From Nocardioidaceae bacterium (GTDB lineage Bacteria; Actinomycetota; Actinomycetes; Propionibacteriales; Nocardioidaceae), in NCBI GenBank assembly GCA_030655315.1, contig JAURVT010000035.1, positions 1 to 64,000 on the forward strand: 64,000 bases of DNA. The letters are read 5' to 3'. Shown one piece after another: positions 16,785 to 27,268 of this stretch. Position numbers and translations under genes: made by a program. The notes under the pieces are model-generated. The model saw only the letters and a program-made list of their open reading frames with translations, did no database searches and was not told where the DNA came from. Numbering within the stretch: the stretch's first letter is position 1; the number at the start of each line of letters is the position of its first letter.

Positions 16785-17507
16785 TCAGGTGCCCCAGAGG
16801 CCCGTCTCGAGGCCGCCGGACATGACGAGCGTGCTCGCCGCGTCGGCCTCAGTGGTACGGACCAGCAGCAGCACCCCGCGGTCGGGCAGGGCGGCGGCGA
16901 CGTCGTCGAGGTCGGCGAGGTAGCGACCCGCGAGGCCGAGGGAGGTGTAGGAGTCGGCGACGGCGACCTGCCCGGCGACCGGGTCGAGGCCCCACAGCAC
17001 GACGAAGTGCCCGACGTGCCACAGTCCGCCGCTGATCGGCCCGGTGCGGAGGTTGGCGACCACGCCCGTCGGGAACGGCGCGTCACGCACGGCCGTCAGC
17101 AGGGACGCGACCGACGCGGACGTCCACGGCCCCGTGACGCCGACGACGGCCACCTCGCCCGCCGTCGCACGCTCGACGCCCGCCGCGAGGGACGCGGCGT
17201 CGGTGCCGGACTCGTCGAGGGACCCGGCGCGCGGCAGGCCGTCCCAGCCGTCGACGCGCGAGGCCTCGCCGGGCGGACGCGCCGCGGGCTCGTCGTGCGG
17301 CCACACCCGGGTCCCGGCGGCGCGGGCGAGGTCGCCGAGCGACGGGACGCCCGGCAGGCCGACGCCGTGCAGCGCGACCTGTGCCGCGAACGGGCCGCAC
17401 AGCTGGTCGGGCTGCGGCAGGTCGAGGGCCTGGGCCGACAGCACCGCGGTGCTGCGGGAGAGCGGGTGGACCCCGGCGAAGGGATCGAGGCCGGTCAGTA
17501 CAGCCAC
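16785..17507 (-). CDS. C39-like papain-fold protein coupled to glutamine-synthetase-like gene
   Basis: I do not recognise a named family with certainty. The 240-residue protein has a C39-peptidase-like pattern: Cys37 in QLCGPFAAQVAL, His167 in VGHFVVLWGLD and Asp185 in VADSYTS, spaced as a Cys-His-Asp papain-type triad. There is no signal peptide or membrane helix, so it would act in the cytosol. The GTG start at 17507 lies inside the last codons of the upstream glutamine-synthetase-like gene (13-bp overlap), so the two are translationally coupled. A role in cleaving an amide or gamma-glutamyl product of its partner is possible but is inference. Confidence 0.7.
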   Translation of the reverse strand: MAVLTGLDPFAGVHPLSRSTAVLSAQALDLPQPDQLCGPFAAQVALHGVGLPGVPSLGDLARAAGTRVWPHDEPAARPPGEASRVDGWDGLPRAGSLDESGTDAASLAAGVERATAGEVAVVGVTGPWTSASVASLLTAVRDAPFPTGVVANLRTGPISGGLWHVGHFVVLWGLDPVAGQVAVADSYTSLGLAGRYLADLDDVAAALPDRGVLLLVRTTEADAASTLVMSGGLETGLWGT

Positions 17508-18862
17508 CGGGTCGAGGTGACGACGTCGTCGGGCGAGCGGTCGGCGGCCCACGCGGCGTCGGCCTCGCGCACGGCGACGAACGCCCCGAGCAGGTCGTCG
17601 CCGAGCACCTCGCGGACCAGGGCGCTGGCCCTCAGGTGCGCCAGCTGCTCCTCGTGCGTCGTCGCCAGCGGCACGACGCCGTGCTCGGCGCGGCGCGCGT
17701 CGTCCCAGCCGCCCACGTCCTCCTGGACGGGGTCGGGCAGCGGCGCGTCGTCGTCGATGCCGGCGAGCCCGGCGGCGATGACGACCGCGAGCGCGAGGTA
17801 GGGGTTGGCCGACGCGTCGGACGGCTTGAGCTCGACGTTGGTGACGTCGGGGCCGAGCAGGCCGGACGCGGGCACCAGGCGGAGCGCGGCCTCGCGGTTC
17901 TCGACGCCCCAGCAGCCGTAGGCGCCGGCCCAGAAGCCCGGCCGTCGGCGCACCAGCGACCCGGTGCTCGGCGCGGTGATCGCGACGATGCCGGGCAGCT
18001 CGCGCAGCAGCCCCGCGACGTACCCGCGTCCGACGTCGGACAGCCCGTGCGGGCCATCGCCGGTGAGCGCGTTGGTGCCGCCCGAGAAGAGCGACGTGTG
18101 CAGGTGCCAGCCGTTGCCGGCGTTGTCGGTGGTGACGACGGGCGCGAAGCTCGCACGCAGGCCGTGCGCGCGAGCGGCGGCGTGGATCGTCTGGCGGGCC
18201 AGCACCTGGGCGTCGGCGGCTGCGACGGCGTCGAGCGGCGCCAGCGCGATCTCCACCTGCGACTGCCCGTACTCGGCGTGCAGCTGGCCGATGCGCAGGC
18301 CGTTGGCGTCGAGGTCGACGAGCAGCTGGCGCGCGAACTCGTCGACGTCGCGCAGCGCGTTGGGGCCGTAGGCCGGTCCGCCGAGGGCGCGCGCGTAGTC
18401 GTCGCCGGCCTCGGCGCGGCTCAGCACGAACTCCATCTCGTAGCCGGCGCGCACCTCGAACCCGCGCTCGGCGGCGCGGGCCACCTGGCGCTCGAGCACG
18501 GCCCGCTGGTCGTACGGCCACGGGCCGCCGTCGGCGTCGAGCTGGCGCCCGGGCACCCACGCGAAGCCGGGCTGGCCCGCGAGGGCGACGGGCGCGTCGA
18601 GCACGGGCACGAGCCGGACGTCGCCCGAGGGCGTCGAGAGCCCCTCGTGCGCGAAGGTGATGCCGTCGTGGGAGTCGAACACCGCGAAGACCGCCGTGAC
18701 GCCGACGCCCCGGCGCGCCGCGGCGGCGAGCTCATCGGTGGGCACCGTGCGCGAGCGGACGATGCCGTTGTTGTCGACCCAGCCGATCGTCACGCCGACG
18801 ACGCCCTTCCCCCTGAGGTGGCCGGCGACCTGGACGGGATCGGACGCGTGGGGCGTGCTCAT
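17495..18862 (-). CDS. glutamine synthetase-family enzyme (gamma-glutamyl-amine ligase type)
   Basis: A 455-residue member of the glutamine synthetase fold that probably joins glutamate to an amine other than ammonia. It has the beta-grasp N-terminus and catalytic-domain marks GYEMEFVL, GNGWHLHTSLF, the RRRPGFWAG segment followed by WGVENREAALR, and the C-terminal SANPYLAL. The adenylylation tyrosine loop of GlnA is absent and the usual GNGMHVH reads GNGWHLH, both typical of GlnA3/PuuA-like paralogues. ATG 18862 has TAACGT 7 nt upstream (leaderless arrangement). It overlaps the next gene, a C39-like protein. Confidence 0.88.
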   Translation of the reverse strand: MSTPHASDPVQVAGHLRGKGVVGVTIGWVDNNGIVRSRTVPTDELAAAARRGVGVTAVFAVFDSHDGITFAHEGLSTPSGDVRLVPVLDAPVALAGQPGFAWVPGRQLDADGGPWPYDQRAVLERQVARAAERGFEVRAGYEMEFVLSRAEAGDDYARALGGPAYGPNALRDVDEFARQLLVDLDANGLRIGQLHAEYGQSQVEIALAPLDAVAAADAQVLARQTIHAAARAHGLRASFAPVVTTDNAGNGWHLHTSLFSGGTNALTGDGPHGLSDVGRGYVAGLLRELPGIVAITAPSTGSLVRRRPGFWAGAYGCWGVENREAALRLVPASGLLGPDVTNVELKPSDASANPYLALAVVIAAGLAGIDDDAPLPDPVQEDVGGWDDARRAEHGVVPLATTHEEQLAHLRASALVREVLGDDLLGAFVAVREADAAWAADRSPDDVVTSTRWLY

Positions 18863-21152: not shown

Positions 21153-21207
21153 GGGGTGGGCCGGCGCGGGCGGTCTTCTGCACCGTCCACAGATGACTGC
21201 AAGAGCC

Positions 21208-21250
21208 TTCACGCGCCGCCTTGATTTGCTAGAATCGAGCATACGTTCGA
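21208..21250 (+). promoter_or_regulatory. SOS (LexA) box overlapping promoter of HNH gene
   Basis: TCGAGCATACGTTCGA at 21235-21250 matches the actinobacterial/mycobacterial LexA consensus TCGAAC-N4-GTTCGA with one mismatch. It overlaps a -10-like TAGAAT (21230-21235), which has a TTCACG 16 bp upstream (21208-21213). The start codon is at 21268. LexA binding here would cover the -10 and transcription start. Confidence 0.75.
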
Positions 21251-21267
21251 CTCACTGGGGACCTGTC

Positions 21268-22586
21268 ATGACCGTCTCTGCCCTCCCGCTCGGCGAGCAC
21301 CCCGCGTTCGCGGTGCTCGCCGCGGTCGAGGGCGCGCTGGCCGGGGGTGGTGACCTGTCGGTCTACGACGGGTTGTCGGCCGAGGACGCGGTGACGCTGG
21401 CGGGGCGTTGGAGCCGGGTGAACTCGAAGGTCGCGGCCCATGCGATGGCCGCGACGCGGTCGGTGGACCGGTCGGGTGCTGCGAGGAGGGCCGGTGCGTC
21501 CTCGACCGGATCGCTGCTGGCGAGTCAGTTCGGTGGCGACCGCAACGCGGCCGCACGGGACGTGCATCTGGGCTGGGCCCTGGAGAAGGCCACGCTGACC
21601 GAGCATGCCCTCGCGGACGGCCGGATCTCCAAGGAGCAGGCCCGGCTGATCGCCCGGGCCATCGCTGGCCTGCCCGATGACATTCCGGCTGAGACGCGCC
21701 AGAAGTGCGAGCGGGCGCTGATCGAGGACGCCAAGACGCTCACGATGCGGGACCTGCAGTACCGGGCCGACCGGATCAGCGACATGCTCAAGCCGGTCGA
21801 GGAGGTGGACGCCGACGAGGGACAGAAGGTCGAGGACCGCGAACGGCAGGCGTACGAGCGGTCGCAGCTCTGGCTGCGGGACAATCGCGACGGCACCTGG
21901 GCTGGGTCGTTCACCCTCCCCGAAGCGCAGGCCGGAGCGCTGAAAAGCGCGTTGGACGGGTTCTCCGCACCCCGCCGACGCCACCTCGACGACGGCCAGG
22001 CCGACACCGACCTCACCTACCCCCAGCGCCAGGGCCGCGCCTTCATCGCCCTCATCGACCACCTGCCCACCGACGGACTCCCCGACGCCGGCGGATCGGG
22101 CATGACGGTCACGCTGAACCTCGACCTCCAGCAGCTGATCGACGGCCTCGGGACGGCCACCACGTCCACCGGCCAGCGGATGTCCGCCTCGCAGGTGCGG
22201 CAGCACGCGTGCCGGGTCGGGATCGTCCCGCAGGTCCTCGGAGGCCAGTCGCTCCCGCTGGACCTGGGCCGCAAGCAGCGCCTCTTCACCCCGCCCAACG
22301 CGTCGCCCTGGCGCACCGGGACCAGGGGTGCGCGATGCCCGACTGCGACCGGCCGCCGTCCTGGTGCGAGGCGCACCACGCGCGGGAACCCTGGGCCCAC
22401 GGCGGGAGCACCGATCTGGAGGACGGGGTGCTGCTCTGTGCCTTCCACCACCGGATGATTCACGAGGACGACTGGGTCATCACCTTCGAGACCGAAGACC
22501 GACGGCCCGCGTTCATCCCACCGGCACGCCTCGACCCGTACCGGAGACCCCGCACCAGCACCCGCTACCGGCCGAGGCGGACGTGA
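21268..22586 (+). pseudogene. DUF222/13E12-family HNH endonuclease-like protein, frameshifted
   Basis: Residues 1-340 form the DUF222 domain in one frame, up to GRKQRLFTPP. The HNH zinc-finger nuclease part (QRVALAHRDQGC, AMPDCDRPPSWCEAHH, LCAFHHRMIHEDDW) continues in another frame to the stop at 22586. Restoring one base in the CCCCGCCC run near 22291-22295 gives a continuous 439-residue protein, so this is a single 1-nt deletion or a sequencing error. In the frame as given, the product would read past the shift to a stop at 22458 without the nuclease motif. The gene has an SOS box, as do several mycobacterial 13E12 genes. The HNH residues themselves are intact. Confidence 0.85.
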
Positions 22587-22657: not shown

Positions 22658-23467
22658 TCAGGCGGGGCGGCGGCGGAGCAGGTAGGTGTCCATCACCCAG
22701 CCGTGCTGGGCCTTGACGCGGTCGCGCGCGGCGACGACGTCGTCCGCCACGTCGGCGAGGGGGCCGGAGACGAGGGCCTCGCCGGGGGTGCCGAGGTTGG
22801 CGCCCCACCACAGGTCCCAGTCGCCGTGGGCGCCGTCGACGAGGGCGGTGGCCGAGAAGTCGCGGTTGAGGACGACGAGGATCGCGTCGCGGCCGGCGTC
22901 CACCTCGGCCATCAGCTGGCGTCCGGTGGTGACGGTGAGCGGGGCGCCGACGTCGTTGAGGACGATGCGGTGACGGGCGGCGAGCAGCTGCAGGGCGCTG
23001 ATGCCGGGCACCACGTCCCAGTCGGGGACGACGTGGCCGCGCTCGGCCATCCGACCGACGATGCGGATGGTCGAGTCGTAGAAGGCCGGGTCGCCCCAGA
23101 CCAGGAAGCCGACCGTCTCGCCGTCGGCCACCTCGTCGGTCAGCACCTGCTCGTAGGCCTCGACGCGGGCCTCGTGCCAGTCCGCGACGGCGCGCTCGTA
23201 GGCCGCTGGGTCGTCGTCGACACGCTTGGAGCGGTCGCGCCGGGGGTCGTCCACGTACGCCACCCGGTGCGGGTGGGTGACGTGGCGGCGGAGCACCTCC
23301 TCGCGCAGCGCGACGAGGTCGTCGGTGGCTCCGCCGTTACCGCGACGCTTGTCGGCGACGACGAACACGTTGACCTCGTCGAGCGCGCGCACCGCCTCGA
23401 CCGTCACCTGGTCGGGGTGGCCGGCGCCGATGCCGACCACCCGGACCCGGCGGTGGACCGGGCTCAC
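22658..23467 (-). CDS. cobF: precorrin-6A synthase (deacetylating)
   Basis: S-adenosylmethionine-dependent C1 methyltransferase of the aerobic cobalamin pathway that removes the extruded acetyl group of precorrin-5 to give precorrin-6A. The 269-residue protein begins with the tetrapyrrole-methylase signature VRVVGIGAGHPDQVTVEAV and has GFLVWGDPAFYDSTIRI and VVPGISALQLLAARH, as in CobF rather than the other cobalamin methylases. The GTG at 23467 follows the cobN stop after 10 bp, so both are read from the riboswitch-controlled promoter near 27270. CobF is specific to the oxygen-dependent route. Confidence 0.93.
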   Translation of the reverse strand: MSPVHRRVRVVGIGAGHPDQVTVEAVRALDEVNVFVVADKRRGNGGATDDLVALREEVLRRHVTHPHRVAYVDDPRRDRSKRVDDDPAAYERAVADWHEARVEAYEQVLTDEVADGETVGFLVWGDPAFYDSTIRIVGRMAERGHVVPDWDVVPGISALQLLAARHRIVLNDVGAPLTVTTGRQLMAEVDAGRDAILVVLNRDFSATALVDGAHGDWDLWWGANLGTPGEALVSGPLADVADDVVAARDRVKAQHGWVMDTYLLRRRPA

Positions 23468-23477
23468 GGGAGGCGGC

Positions 23478-26400
23478 TCACTGCTCGTCGCGGTCCTCGA
23501 GATCGCCCTCGACGTCGAGGTACAGCTGCTGCAGCTGCGACATCGTCTCGGGCTCCGGCTCGGCCCACAGGCCACGGTCGGCCGCCTCGGTGAGGCGCTC
23601 GATCATGCCGCGCAGCGCCCAGGGGTTCGCGTGGCGCAGGAACGCCTGGTTGGTCTCGTCGAGCGCGTACGTCTGAGCGAGCTGCTCGTACATGTGGTCG
23701 CCGACGACGCCGGTGGTGGCGTCGTAGCCGAACATGTAGTCGACGGTGGCGGCCAGCTCGAACGCGCCCTTGTAGCCGTGCTTGCGCATCGCGGCGATCC
23801 AGCGCGGGTTGACCACGCGGGCGCGGAAGATGCGCGACGTCTCCTGCTCCAGCGTGCGGGTACGCACGGCGTCGGGCGTGGTGGAGTCGCCGATGTAGGC
23901 CTTGGGCGCGGTGCCCGTGAGCGCGCGCACCGTGGCGACCATGCCGCCGTGGTACTGGAAGTAGTCGTCGGAGTCGATGATGTCGTGCTCGCGGGTGTCG
24001 GTGTTCTTGGCCGCCACCGCGATGCGCTTGTAGTTGGAGCGCATGTCGTCCGACGCCGCGATGCCCGCGAGGTCGCGGCCGTACGCGAAGCCGCCCCACG
24101 CCGTGTAGACCTCGGCGAGGTCGGCGTCGTCGCGCCAGTTGCCCGACTCCATCAGCGGCAGGATGCCCGCGCCGTACGCGCCGGGCTTGGAGCCGAAGAT
24201 GCGCGTGGTGGCGCGACGCTCGTCGCCGTGCTCGGCGAGGTCGGCCTGCGCGTGCGCGCGGACGTAGTTCTGGTCCTCGGGCTCGTCGAGCGCGGCCACC
24301 AGGCGGACGGCGTCGTCGAGCATCGTCACGACGTGCGGGAACGCGTCGCGGAAGAAGCCCGAGATGCGCACGGTGACGTCGATCCGCGGACGGCCGAGGT
24401 CCTCCAGCGACACCACCTGCAGGTCGGTGACGCGGCGCGACGCCTCGTCCCAGACCGGCTGGACGCCGAGCAGCGCGAGCACCTCGCCGACGTCGTCGCC
24501 GCTGGTGCGCATCGCCGACGTGCCCCAGACCGACAGGCCCACCGAGCGCGGGTGCGCACCGGTCTCCTCGACGAACCGCTGCACCAGCGAGGCGGCCATC
24601 GCGGCGCCGGTGTCGTAGGCCAGGCGCGACGGCACGGCCTTGGGGTCGACGGTGTAGAAGTTGCGGCCCGTGGGCAGCACGTTCACCAGACCGCGCAGCG
24701 GCGAGCCCGACGGGCCGGCGGGGATGAAGCCGCCGTCGAGCGCGTGCAGCACGTTGTCGAGCTCGTCGGTGGTGCGCTCCAGGCGCGGGACGACCTCGCG
24801 GGCGGCGAACTCGAGCACCTGCTGCACCACGGGGTCGGCCTGGCCGAGGCGCTCGGCGACGACGGTGGCCGCGGCGGGCACCGTCCAGCCGGCGTCCTCC
24901 ATGCCCTGGACGAGACCGCGGGCCCGCTCCTCGATCGCGTCGATGGCGTGCAGGCCCTCGCCGGTGTCGTTCTCCTTCAGGCCGAGCGCCGAGCGCAGGC
25001 CCGGCAGCGCGCCGGCCTGGCCGCTCCACACCTGCGACGCGCGCAGGATGGCGAGCACCAGGTTGACGCGGGCCTCGCCGGCCGGCGGGGCACCGAGCAC
25101 GTGCAGGCCGTCACGGATCTGCATGTCCTTGATCTCACAGAGCCAGCCGTCGATGTGCAGGATGAAGTCGTCGAACTCGGCGTCGTGCGGGCGGTCGTCG
25201 AGCCCGAGGTCGTGGTCGAGCTTGGCGGCCTGGATGAGCGTCCAGATCTGCTGGCGGACGGCCGGCAGCTTGGCCGGGTCCATCGCCGCGATGTTGGCGT
25301 GCTCGTCGAGCAGCTGCTCGAGCCGCGCGATGTCGCCGTACGTCTCGGCGCGCGCCATGGGCGGCACCAGGTGGTCGACGACGGTGGCGTGGGCGCGTCG
25401 CTTGGCCTGGGCACCCTCGCCCGGGTCGTTGACGAGGAACGGGTAGATCAGCGGCATGTCGCCGATCGCGGCGTCGGTGGCGCACGACGCCGAGAGCGCC
25501 GCGTTCTTGCCGGGCAGCCACTCCATCGAGCCGTGCTTGCCGAGGTGGACGACGGCGTGCGCGCCGAACTCCTCCTCGAGCCAGCGGTACGCGGCGAGGT
25601 AGTGGTGCGACGGCGCCATGTCGGGGTCGTGGTAGATCGCGACCGGGTTCTCGCCGAAGCCGCGGGGCGGCTGGATCAGGACGACGACGTTGCCGGCGCG
25701 CAGCGTCGCGATGACGATCTCGTCGTCGTCGTTGACGAAGAGCTTGCCGGGCGCCGGGCCCCACGCCTGCTCCATCGCGCCGGTCAGCTCGGCCGGCAGG
25801 TGGGCGATCCAGCGGCGGTAGTCCGCGGCCGGGATGCGCACGGTGCTGGTCGAGAGCTGCGCGTGCGTCAGCCACTCCTCGTCCTGGCCGCCGGCGGCGA
25901 TCAGGGCGTGGATGAGGGCGTTGCCGGACGTCGTGTCGGGCTCCTCGCCCTCGATCACGGGCAGCGGGTCGAGGCCGGGCAGCTCGCCCGGACCACCGAG
26001 GTCGTAGCCGGCGTCGCGCATGCGGCGCATCAGGCGGATGGCGCTGACGGGAGTGTCGAGGCCGACCGCGTTGCCGATGCGGGCGTGCTTGGTGGGGTAG
26101 GCCGAGAGCATCAGCGCGACCTTGCGGTCCGACGCCGGCACCTTGCGCAGCCGGGCGTGCGAGGCCGCGATGCCGGCGAGGCGCTCGCAGCGCTCGGCAT
26201 CGGCGACGTAGTGCGGCAGACCGTCCTGGTCGATCTCCTTGAAGCTGAACGGCACGGTGATGATGCGGCCGTCGAACTCGGGGATCGCGATCTGGTTGGC
26301 CGAGTCGAGCGGCGAGAGGCCGTCGTCGGACTCGGCCCACTCCTCGCGCGACCAGGTCAGGCACAGGCCCTGCAGGATCGGGATGTCGAGCGCGGCCATC

Positions 26401-27119
26401 GCGCCGACGTCCCAGGCCTCGTCCTCCTCGCCGGCGCTGGCGGTGGCCGGACGCGACCCGCCCGCGGCGAGCACGGTGACCACGAGCGCGTCGAGGGTGC
26501 CGAGGGCCTCGAGCAGGTCGGGGCTCGCGGTGCGCAGCGACGACGAGTGCAGCGGCAGGCCCACCGAGTCGCCCGTGGCGTCGATCGCGTCGGCCAGCGA
26601 GTGCGCGAAGGCGTCGTTGCCGCTGGTGGCGTGGGCGCGGTAGAAGAGCACGCCGATGCGGGCCCGGCGATCGGCGTCGGCGACGTCGGGGCGGTCGAGC
26701 CAGCCCCAGGTGGGCATCGTGGCGGGAGGCTCGAAGCCCTCACCGGTGAGCAGCACGGTGTCCGAGACGAACGCGTGCAGCTGCGACAGGTTGCCCGGGC
26801 CGCTCTCGGCCAGGTAGCGGTGCGCCTCGGCGGCGACGCCGATCGGCACCGTCGACTGCTCCATCAGCTCCGCGGACGGCTGCTGCTCGCCACCGACGAC
26901 GACCATCGGCTTGCCCGTCGCACGGATGCGCGCGAAGCCCGAGCAGAGGTCGTCGGGGGTGCCGAGGATGCGGGCGACGACGACGTCGGCCGCCTCGATC
27001 GCGGCCGCCATCTCCTGGTGCCCCGGGCGACCGGGGTTCGCGAGCAGCCAGTCGGCGCCGCTCGCGCGGGCCGCCAGCAGGTCGGTGTCGGACGTGGACA
27101 GCAGGGCGATTCGTGCCAT
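23478..27119 (-). CDS. cobN: cobaltochelatase subunit CobN
   Basis: Large substrate-binding subunit (1213 residues) of the ATP-dependent aerobic cobaltochelatase that inserts Co2+ into hydrogenobyrinic acid a,c-diamide. It has the characteristic CobN/BchH blocks VHLGKHGSMEWLPGKNAALS, IYPFLVNDPGEGAQAKRR and, near the C-terminus, GYKGAFELAATVDYMFGYDA. ATG 27119 is preceded by AAGGAG (27130-27135) and a cobalamin riboswitch. Its AAA+/VWA partner is the ChlI-ChlD fusion at 38487-40577, replacing separate CobS and CobT subunits. It is co-transcribed with cobF. Confidence 0.96.
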   Translation of the reverse strand: MARIALLSTSDTDLLAARASGADWLLANPGRPGHQEMAAAIEAADVVVARILGTPDDLCSGFARIRATGKPMVVVGGEQQPSAELMEQSTVPIGVAAEAHRYLAESGPGNLSQLHAFVSDTVLLTGEGFEPPATMPTWGWLDRPDVADADRRARIGVLFYRAHATSGNDAFAHSLADAIDATGDSVGLPLHSSSLRTASPDLLEALGTLDALVVTVLAAGGSRPATASAGEEDEAWDVGAMAALDIPILQGLCLTWSREEWAESDDGLSPLDSANQIAIPEFDGRIITVPFSFKEIDQDGLPHYVADAERCERLAGIAASHARLRKVPASDRKVALMLSAYPTKHARIGNAVGLDTPVSAIRLMRRMRDAGYDLGGPGELPGLDPLPVIEGEEPDTTSGNALIHALIAAGGQDEEWLTHAQLSTSTVRIPAADYRRWIAHLPAELTGAMEQAWGPAPGKLFVNDDDEIVIATLRAGNVVVLIQPPRGFGENPVAIYHDPDMAPSHHYLAAYRWLEEEFGAHAVVHLGKHGSMEWLPGKNAALSASCATDAAIGDMPLIYPFLVNDPGEGAQAKRRAHATVVDHLVPPMARAETYGDIARLEQLLDEHANIAAMDPAKLPAVRQQIWTLIQAAKLDHDLGLDDRPHDAEFDDFILHIDGWLCEIKDMQIRDGLHVLGAPPAGEARVNLVLAILRASQVWSGQAGALPGLRSALGLKENDTGEGLHAIDAIEERARGLVQGMEDAGWTVPAAATVVAERLGQADPVVQQVLEFAAREVVPRLERTTDELDNVLHALDGGFIPAGPSGSPLRGLVNVLPTGRNFYTVDPKAVPSRLAYDTGAAMAASLVQRFVEETGAHPRSVGLSVWGTSAMRTSGDDVGEVLALLGVQPVWDEASRRVTDLQVVSLEDLGRPRIDVTVRISGFFRDAFPHVVTMLDDAVRLVAALDEPEDQNYVRAHAQADLAEHGDERRATTRIFGSKPGAYGAGILPLMESGNWRDDADLAEVYTAWGGFAYGRDLAGIAASDDMRSNYKRIAVAAKNTDTREHDIIDSDDYFQYHGGMVATVRALTGTAPKAYIGDSTTPDAVRTRTLEQETSRIFRARVVNPRWIAAMRKHGYKGAFELAATVDYMFGYDATTGVVGDHMYEQLAQTYALDETNQAFLRHANPWALRGMIERLTEAADRGLWAEPEPETMSQLQQLYLDVEGDLEDRDEQ

Positions 27120-27159
27120 GGGGCGGGTGCTCCTTGCCGGGGTTCGCGCCCCGTCGGTG

Positions 27160-27268
27160 GTGGGAGTCGACGCGTGCAGTGTCTGGCTGGCCACCGCCGG
27201 TGGGCGGCGGCGTCACAGTGGCGGAACCGCCCCGGACTCGCACCGGGTTCCTGGGGACGCGACGTCCT
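27160..27268 (-). promoter_or_regulatory. cobalamin riboswitch upstream of cobN
   Basis: On the minus strand the leader contains the core AACCCGGTGCGAGTCCGG, then TTCCGCCACTGTGACGC, and a B12 box reading GCCAGCCAGACACTGC (about 27173-27190), the conserved features of adenosylcobalamin riboswitches. TAGGCT (27273-27278) is a plausible -10, placing the 5' end near 27266. A further GC hairpin lies between the B12 box and the ribosome-binding site. Binding of B12 should shut off cobN-cobF. Confidence 0.9.

Follow-up and report, generated by a model that had tools for sequence, protein, structure and literature searches.

We describe a two-gene unit in which a glutamine-synthetase-like ligase is encoded next to a small protein of the Pfam family DUF6885, and which we read, with moderate confidence, as a gamma-glutamyl-amide ligase together with a papain-fold gamma-glutamyl-amide hydrolase. 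The pair lies on the minus strand of the window (the whole stretch of DNA analysed, 64,000 nucleotides), which comes from a 4.18-Mb draft genome in 57 contigs; all relatives in this analysis are Actinomycetota. The combination of a ligase with a gamma-glutamyl hydrolase is a known kind of system; what is new here is a partner with a papain fold. The features of the pair are given in Table 1, where the residues of the DUF6885 protein are counted from its GTG.

Table 1. The ligase-DUF6885 pair and its key codons (positions in the window)
Feature	Position	Strand	Basis
Glutamine-synthetase-like amide ligase, 455 aa, ATG start	17495..18862	-	Gln-synt_C, E 7.4e-75
DUF6885 (PF21819) papain-fold protein (predicted fold), 240 aa, GTG start	16785..17507	-	Pfam E 7.6e-42, 143.6 bits
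13-bp overlap between the ligase end and the DUF6885 start	17495..17507	-	-13 offset shared by 8 loci
Cys37 codon of DUF6885 protein, predicted nucleophile	17397..17399	-	Invariant in 31/31 aligned members
His167 codon of DUF6885 protein, predicted general base	17007..17009	-	Invariant in 31/31; GHF motif
Asp185 codon of DUF6885 protein, third predicted triad residue	16953..16955	-	Invariant in 31/31
Trp311 codon of ligase, position of the glutamine synthetase flap Glu	17930..17932	-	Alignment with B. subtilis glutamine synthetase and PA5508 (4hpp)

A first-pass annotation of the window had proposed that the two genes overlap by 13 bp; both frames are open over the intervals in Table 1, and the overlap is there. 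Eight loci (the window, L029, L034, L037, L046, L049, L050 and L051) have a start codon, ATG or GTG, in frame at precisely this -13 offset. In all eight, the Arg of a C-terminal R-W-x-Y motif in the ligase is encoded by CGA, CGG or AGG, which generates the DUF6885 start codon at this offset, while CGC or CGT is used in 13 of the 15 non-overlapping named loci that have this Arg. The overlapping start thus exceeds chance. In most other loci DUF6885 starts 1-4 nt past the ligase stop, with distances of up to 56 nt in deep-branching loci and several hundred nt in L038.

The best NCBIfam match of the ligase is gamma-glutamylputrescine synthetase (NF045547), at 284.7 bits and below the cut-off of 650, and it scores 180.8 bits against GlnA (cut-off 429.15). 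In glutamine synthetase (GS), the metal ligands bind metal and a flap Glu helps to bind ammonium. The window ligase has conserved residues at the aligned metal-ligand positions (E142, E144, E197, E204, H253 and E344), but the flap Glu of B. subtilis GS is replaced by Trp311. PA5508 (4hpp) also has W here, and the position is W or F in all full-length ligase rows surveyed. We reject a plain glutamine synthetase on the GlnA score and the missing flap Glu. Judged by these residues, the enzyme is probably an organic-amine ligase: GS fold, metal ligands and absence of the flap Glu fit the pattern of the gamma-glutamyl organic-amide ligases (GoaS/GGL), and gamma-glutamyl ligases are described as lacking the key acidic residues for ammonium (PMC6478659).

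The small protein scores 143.6 bits with PF21819 (DUF6885, a "family of unknown function"), for which the cut-off is 27, and NCBIfam gave no match for it; all 31 aligned members match the Pfam family. Cys37, His167 and Asp185, the pattern proposed in the first-pass annotation, are found at these residues and are invariant in the 31 members, together with Q32, D34, G38, G101, T102, G166, F168 and Y187, among others. Because the triad is invariant, catalysis by DUF6885 is likely. An AlphaFold2 model of the window protein (mean pLDDT 95.0, pTM 0.92) predicts a papain-like fold, with a triad layout to match; as judged from secondary structure (DSSP) and superposition, C37 opens the central helix (H37-46), H167 stands at the start of a strand (E166-175) and D185 follows the next strand (E180-184). 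The first-pass annotation had named a predicted structure that fails to bring these three residues together as grounds for refutation, and at this level the model passes that check.

To place this fold, we ranked solved chains with Foldseek and re-aligned them with VIA-align. Papain-fold chains fill the list of matches. The top match is the phytochelatin synthase Alr0975, with Z 16.6 and 2.6 A over 174 residues. Tied with it within 1 Z is 22oc, "P210 CD lyase" (Z 15.9), a name for which a literature search found nothing; next come the pseudomurein endoisopeptidase PeiR (Z 15.2) and the C39 peptidase ComA (Z 13.7). A second model, of a Streptosporangium DUF6885 (pLDDT 90.6), gives the same top order, with phytochelatin synthase at Z 15.5 and 2.9 A over 179 residues. 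By sequence alone, a search for solved relatives returned only unrelated proteins (best E 1.8 and 0.87). No member of the 31 matches PF05023 (phytochelatin synthase) at E up to 1, and a PF05023 search matched none of 296 genomes and no controls, so that no phytochelatin-synthase profile could be built.

The first-pass annotation had called the protein C39-like. The predicted fold is indeed papain-like, and C39 is among the near matches, but the named Pfam family is DUF6885 and the closest solved fold is phytochelatin synthase. Peptidase C39 and C39_2 share with DUF6885 the papain fold, a Cys near the N-terminus and a GHF...D motif. At E up to 1, PF13529 (Peptidase_C39_2, cut-off 24 bits) weakly matches three of the 31 members (best 0.041), and hhalign aligns DUF6885 with C39_2 at a probability of 33% over 53 columns containing the His and Asp. 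The ABC transporter and secreted leader that accompany peptidase C39 are missing at the window pair. A C39 bacteriocin protease is ruled out, as the annotation had held: none of the 31 members matches PF03412 (bacteriocin-processing peptidase C39) at E up to 1, and the window shows no ABC transporter next to the pair. It had also reported no export signal, and by eye the N-terminus has no evident hydrophobic one.

Conservation of the pair in related genomes had been set beforehand as a test of the proposed link. Scanning named genomes, we obtained 22 loci, of which 12 are from Rhodococcus/Rhodococcoides and the rest from Nocardioides, Marmoricola, Streptosporangium and Actinocorallia. In 22/22, spanning five actinobacterial genera, a ligase lies immediately upstream of DUF6885 on the same strand, with 63-76% identity to the window ligase. 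The ligase gene is disrupted in two: that of Rhodococcoides fascians NBRC 12155 (L036:6611-7978) contains a single in-frame stop, and that of Rhodococcus sp. IEGM 1381 (L032:6630-7996) is frameshifted, in each case through either decay or a sequencing error. Among 197 genomes of the window's family, a ligase ortholog (67-75%, tblastn) is found in 11, including the window's own, and DUF6885 is found in the same 11, adjacent to it (Fisher p 3e-18, a statistic that ignores relatedness); several of these coincide with named-locus genomes. Two weak DUF6885 matches in this search (E 1.7e-4 and 9e-4) were set aside as chance, and one genome (G453) has a 44% ligase without DUF6885. This conservation in the named loci and family genomes rules out chance adjacency.

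We also drew genomes more widely. Of 394 genomes drawn across the class, six have DUF6885 and five a ligase at 62% or more, four of them having both; one of the DUF6885 genomes has a 34% ligase about 7 kb away (G838), and in another the contig ends at DUF6885 (G795). A phylum-wide draw of 396 genomes gave 12 DUF6885 matches, 11 of them above the cut-off, and a ligase or ligase remnant adjoins DUF6885 in 9 of these 11. The remaining two (G285 and G296) have DUF6885 without an adjacent ligase, on short or truncated contigs. These counts show that DUF6885 is rare but seldom distant from such a ligase.

The surroundings of the pair vary between genera, indicating that the pair itself is the conserved unit. 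In 12/12 Rhodococcus/Rhodococcoides loci (L031, L032, L033, L035, L036, L040-L044, L047 and L052), it interrupts the ribosomal spc operon between rplE and rpsH (named by eye from the protein sequences) and is encoded on the opposite strand. The neighbours in the other genera (Nocardioides, Streptosporangium and Actinocorallia) are unrelated. Searches of plasmid, phage and viral-contig collections gave no match to the pair in those collections. In the window, its neighbours offer no pathway clue. A DUF222 protein is encoded at 21193-22458 (+), DUF222 being a repeat-like family that is common in genomes of this kind. A tetrapyrrole methylase gene (22658-23575, -) adjoins a long open frame (23478-27194, -) that appears CobN-like by eye; together these look like a cobalamin locus.

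The nearest other ligases of the Actinomycetes share 40-45% identity with that of the window, and they keep different company. We examined 26 of the 39 sister-ligase loci found (the 25 best of 38, plus G453). An Amidohydro_2 gene lies within 1.5 kb of the ligase in 22 of the 26, and DUF6885 in none. Conversely, tblastn found no FluG/SCO6961-type Amidohydro_2 around the window pair or the 22 named pairs (flanks of 1.5 kb in the window and about 8 kb in most named loci). In a maximum-likelihood tree of 65 ligases (midpoint-rooted for drawing only), 28 DUF6885-paired ligases and an orphan, that of G820, form one group with support 100/100. The 26 other ligases form a second group (100/98), and the two groups are joined at 97/91.

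Several systems combine such a ligase with a second enzyme. PuuD hydrolyses a gamma-glutamyl amide after the ligase product has been modified. Aniline degradation uses the ligase AtdA1 together with the GAT-like AtdA2, which hydrolyses gamma-glutamylanilide (PMC11335346). In AtdA1/AtdA2 and NpaA1/NpaA2 (gamma-glutamylanilide and naphthylamide), as in the window, the gene for a GS-like organic-amine ligase adjoins that for a second enzyme, AtdA2 and NpaA2 being reported or inferred to hydrolyse the gamma-glutamyl product of the ligase (PMC11335346). However, the Atd and Npa hydrolases are GAT-like and belong to a five-gene dioxygenase cluster, whereas the window has a papain-fold DUF6885 in a two-gene cassette. 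In Streptomyces coelicolor, glnA3, encoding a gamma-glutamylpolyamine synthetase, is followed by the amidohydrolase-2 gene SCO6961, which is polyamine-induced and encodes the predicted hydrolase of the pathway (PMC5403932). Fungal FluG is a fusion of ligase-type and amidohydrolase-type domains (PMC6478659), and the last gene of the GlnA4 cluster is predicted to encode an amidohydrolase or amidotransferase (PMC6529630). The ligase and amidohydrolase arrangement of GlnA3-SCO6961 and FluG matches that of the sister clade, which corresponds to GlnA3 by gene order and not by sequence comparison with SCO6962. The partner in GlnA3-SCO6961 is Amidohydro_2, a Pfam family other than DUF6885, and no Amidohydro_2 gene adjoins the window pair.

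Because of this swap of partners, and of the described ligase-hydrolase pairs, DUF6885 appears to take the place held elsewhere by hydrolases. Our best reading is that it is a papain-type counterpart of AtdA2, PuuD and SCO6961. The ligase would spend ATP on coupling an organic amine, probably a polyamine-like or other small one, to the gamma-carboxylate of glutamate. DUF6885 would be a cytosolic Cys-His-Asp amidohydrolase that cleaves the gamma-glutamyl amide through a gamma-glutamyl-Cys37 acyl-enzyme, releasing glutamate. It might act directly on the ligase product and hold its level down, as AtdA2 does. Alternatively, it might act after the product has been modified by enzymes encoded elsewhere, like PuuD and, as predicted, SCO6961. 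The observed basis of this reading consists of the genes and their overlap, the conservation, the invariant triad, the predicted fold, the ligase residues and the partner swap. The first-pass annotation had offered an amide pathway in two steps or a self-regulating pair; the comparison with sister ligases favours the amide pathway, and the self-regulating pair gained no specific support.

In deep-branching DUF6885 operons the gene content is richer, with genes for amino-acid permease, ligase, M20 peptidase, aminotransferase, aldehyde dehydrogenase and GATase. One deep-branching actinobacterium (L025:4786-12157) encodes, on one strand, a permease, a ligase, DUF6885, a second ligase, an M20 peptidase and a FluG-type amidohydrolase. 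Amidohydro_2 and M20 accompany DUF6885 in L023 (by similarity), and class-I GATases, an aminotransferase and an aldehyde dehydrogenase share its operon in L026, where the DUF6885 gene precedes the ligase gene. In L110:500-9501, DUF6885 comes first and is followed, by eye, by a class-V-aminotransferase-like gene, a branched-chain-type ABC transporter (a different type from the bacteriocin-processing C39 kind), a class-II GATase-like gene and a 34% ligase. Since such operons carry both, DUF6885 is not simply a substitute for the other candidate hydrolases, and it may act on a bond other than that of the co-encoded ones.

These operons bear on the first of the alternatives, in which DUF6885 works before the ligase: as an amidase or small-peptide hydrolase it would free an amine from a precursor, and the ligase would then glutamylate that amine. 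The amino-acid permease, M20 peptidase and amidohydrolase genes fit this order, as does the gene order of L026, and the FluG study proposes it for the amidohydrolase half (PMC6478659). In the nearest described pairs, however, the hydrolase follows the ligase, and we consider release of the amine first rather unlikely, although it ranks next after the ligase-hydrolase pair.

Phytochelatin synthase raises another alternative. It is a papain-fold transpeptidase that forms a gamma-Glu-Cys acyl-enzyme and cuts the Cys-Gly bond, not the gamma-Glu bond. Like DUF6885, Alr0975 (PF05023, MEROPS C83) has a papain fold with a Cys-His-Asp triad, and it acts on a gamma-glutamyl substrate. The triad of AtPCS1 is C56-H162-D180 (PMC3855540), and the His and Asp are 18 residues apart both there and in DUF6885 (H167-D185). 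Yet DUF6885 and Alr0975 share 10-12% identity and no Pfam match, and the Gln preceding the Cys stands at -5 in DUF6885 (the invariant Gln32) but at -6 in AtPCS1 (the oxyanion Gln). As the top structural match of both models is such a transpeptidase, DUF6885 might be a transferase that takes the gamma-glutamyl (or gamma-glutamyl-dipeptidyl) group from the ligase product and hands it to a second amine or peptide, which would also account for a two-gene cassette without oxidases. Against this, Alr0975 is reported to turn glutathione into gamma-glutamylcysteine without synthase activity (according to a title cited in PMC3855540), and the neighbourhood suggests no acceptor. We rate a transferase as a little less probable than prior release of the amine.

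Could DUF6885 instead process or regulate the ligase, either as a peptidase or as a non-catalytic subunit, in the manner of the self-regulating pair? A complex would fit both the gene overlap and the 1:1 co-occurrence seen in the family genomes. However, the invariance of the triad speaks for catalysis; in G156 (L020:7304-8906), an intact DUF6885 gene adjoins a ligase remnant that is frameshifted and internally deleted, with the catalytic middle missing; and G820, in the class-wide draw, has a 62%-identity ligase and no DUF6885. A role as regulator thus seems improbable. That the two genes are neighbours through history only, with separate functions, is more improbable still: the ligase stands alone in G820, and DUF6885 lacks a ligase on a 5.8-kb contig of G285, but the pair is retained in surroundings as different as the ribosomal operon of Rhodococcus and the unrelated loci of Nocardioides, Streptosporangium and Actinocorallia.

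Some observations also count against the ligase-hydrolase reading. Some deep-branching operons hold other candidate hydrolases, the G820 ligase is an orphan and that of G156 a remnant. The two-gene cassette has no oxidase or dehydrogenase as a conserved neighbour, so a ligase and a hydrolase alone would form a futile cycle. The model drawn from phytochelatin synthase is also imperfect, given its preference for Cys-Gly and the different Gln-Cys spacing. We nevertheless place the ligase-hydrolase pair ahead of both prior amine release and a transferase. Among the papers covered, a literature search found none naming DUF6885, and another, for a papain-like protein paired with a GS-like ligase, returned no report recognisable as this pair in the text it covered, the amidoligase survey of Iyer et al. 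(2009) being outside its scope.

A bolder version of the proposal, which we regard as possible but doubtful, is that DUF6885 represents a new papain-type class of gamma-glutamyl-amide hydrolases or transferases, on which, in Actinomycetota, one clade of organic-amine ligases has settled as its near-obligate partner. Together with its ligase it would form a reversible gamma-glutamylation switch for a small molecule, a writer and an eraser that moved between lineages as a two-gene unit. As it stands, a Pfam family without a function acquires a fold and an active site, both predicted, and is closely tied in function to a ligase, while what was loosely annotated as "glutamine synthetase" becomes part of a testable ligase-hydrolase pair. 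If the reading is true, at least three unrelated hydrolase folds (GATase, amidohydrolase and papain) have been recruited beside the same ligase superfamily, and the substrate of this actinobacterial ligase can be sought by means of two small soluble proteins.
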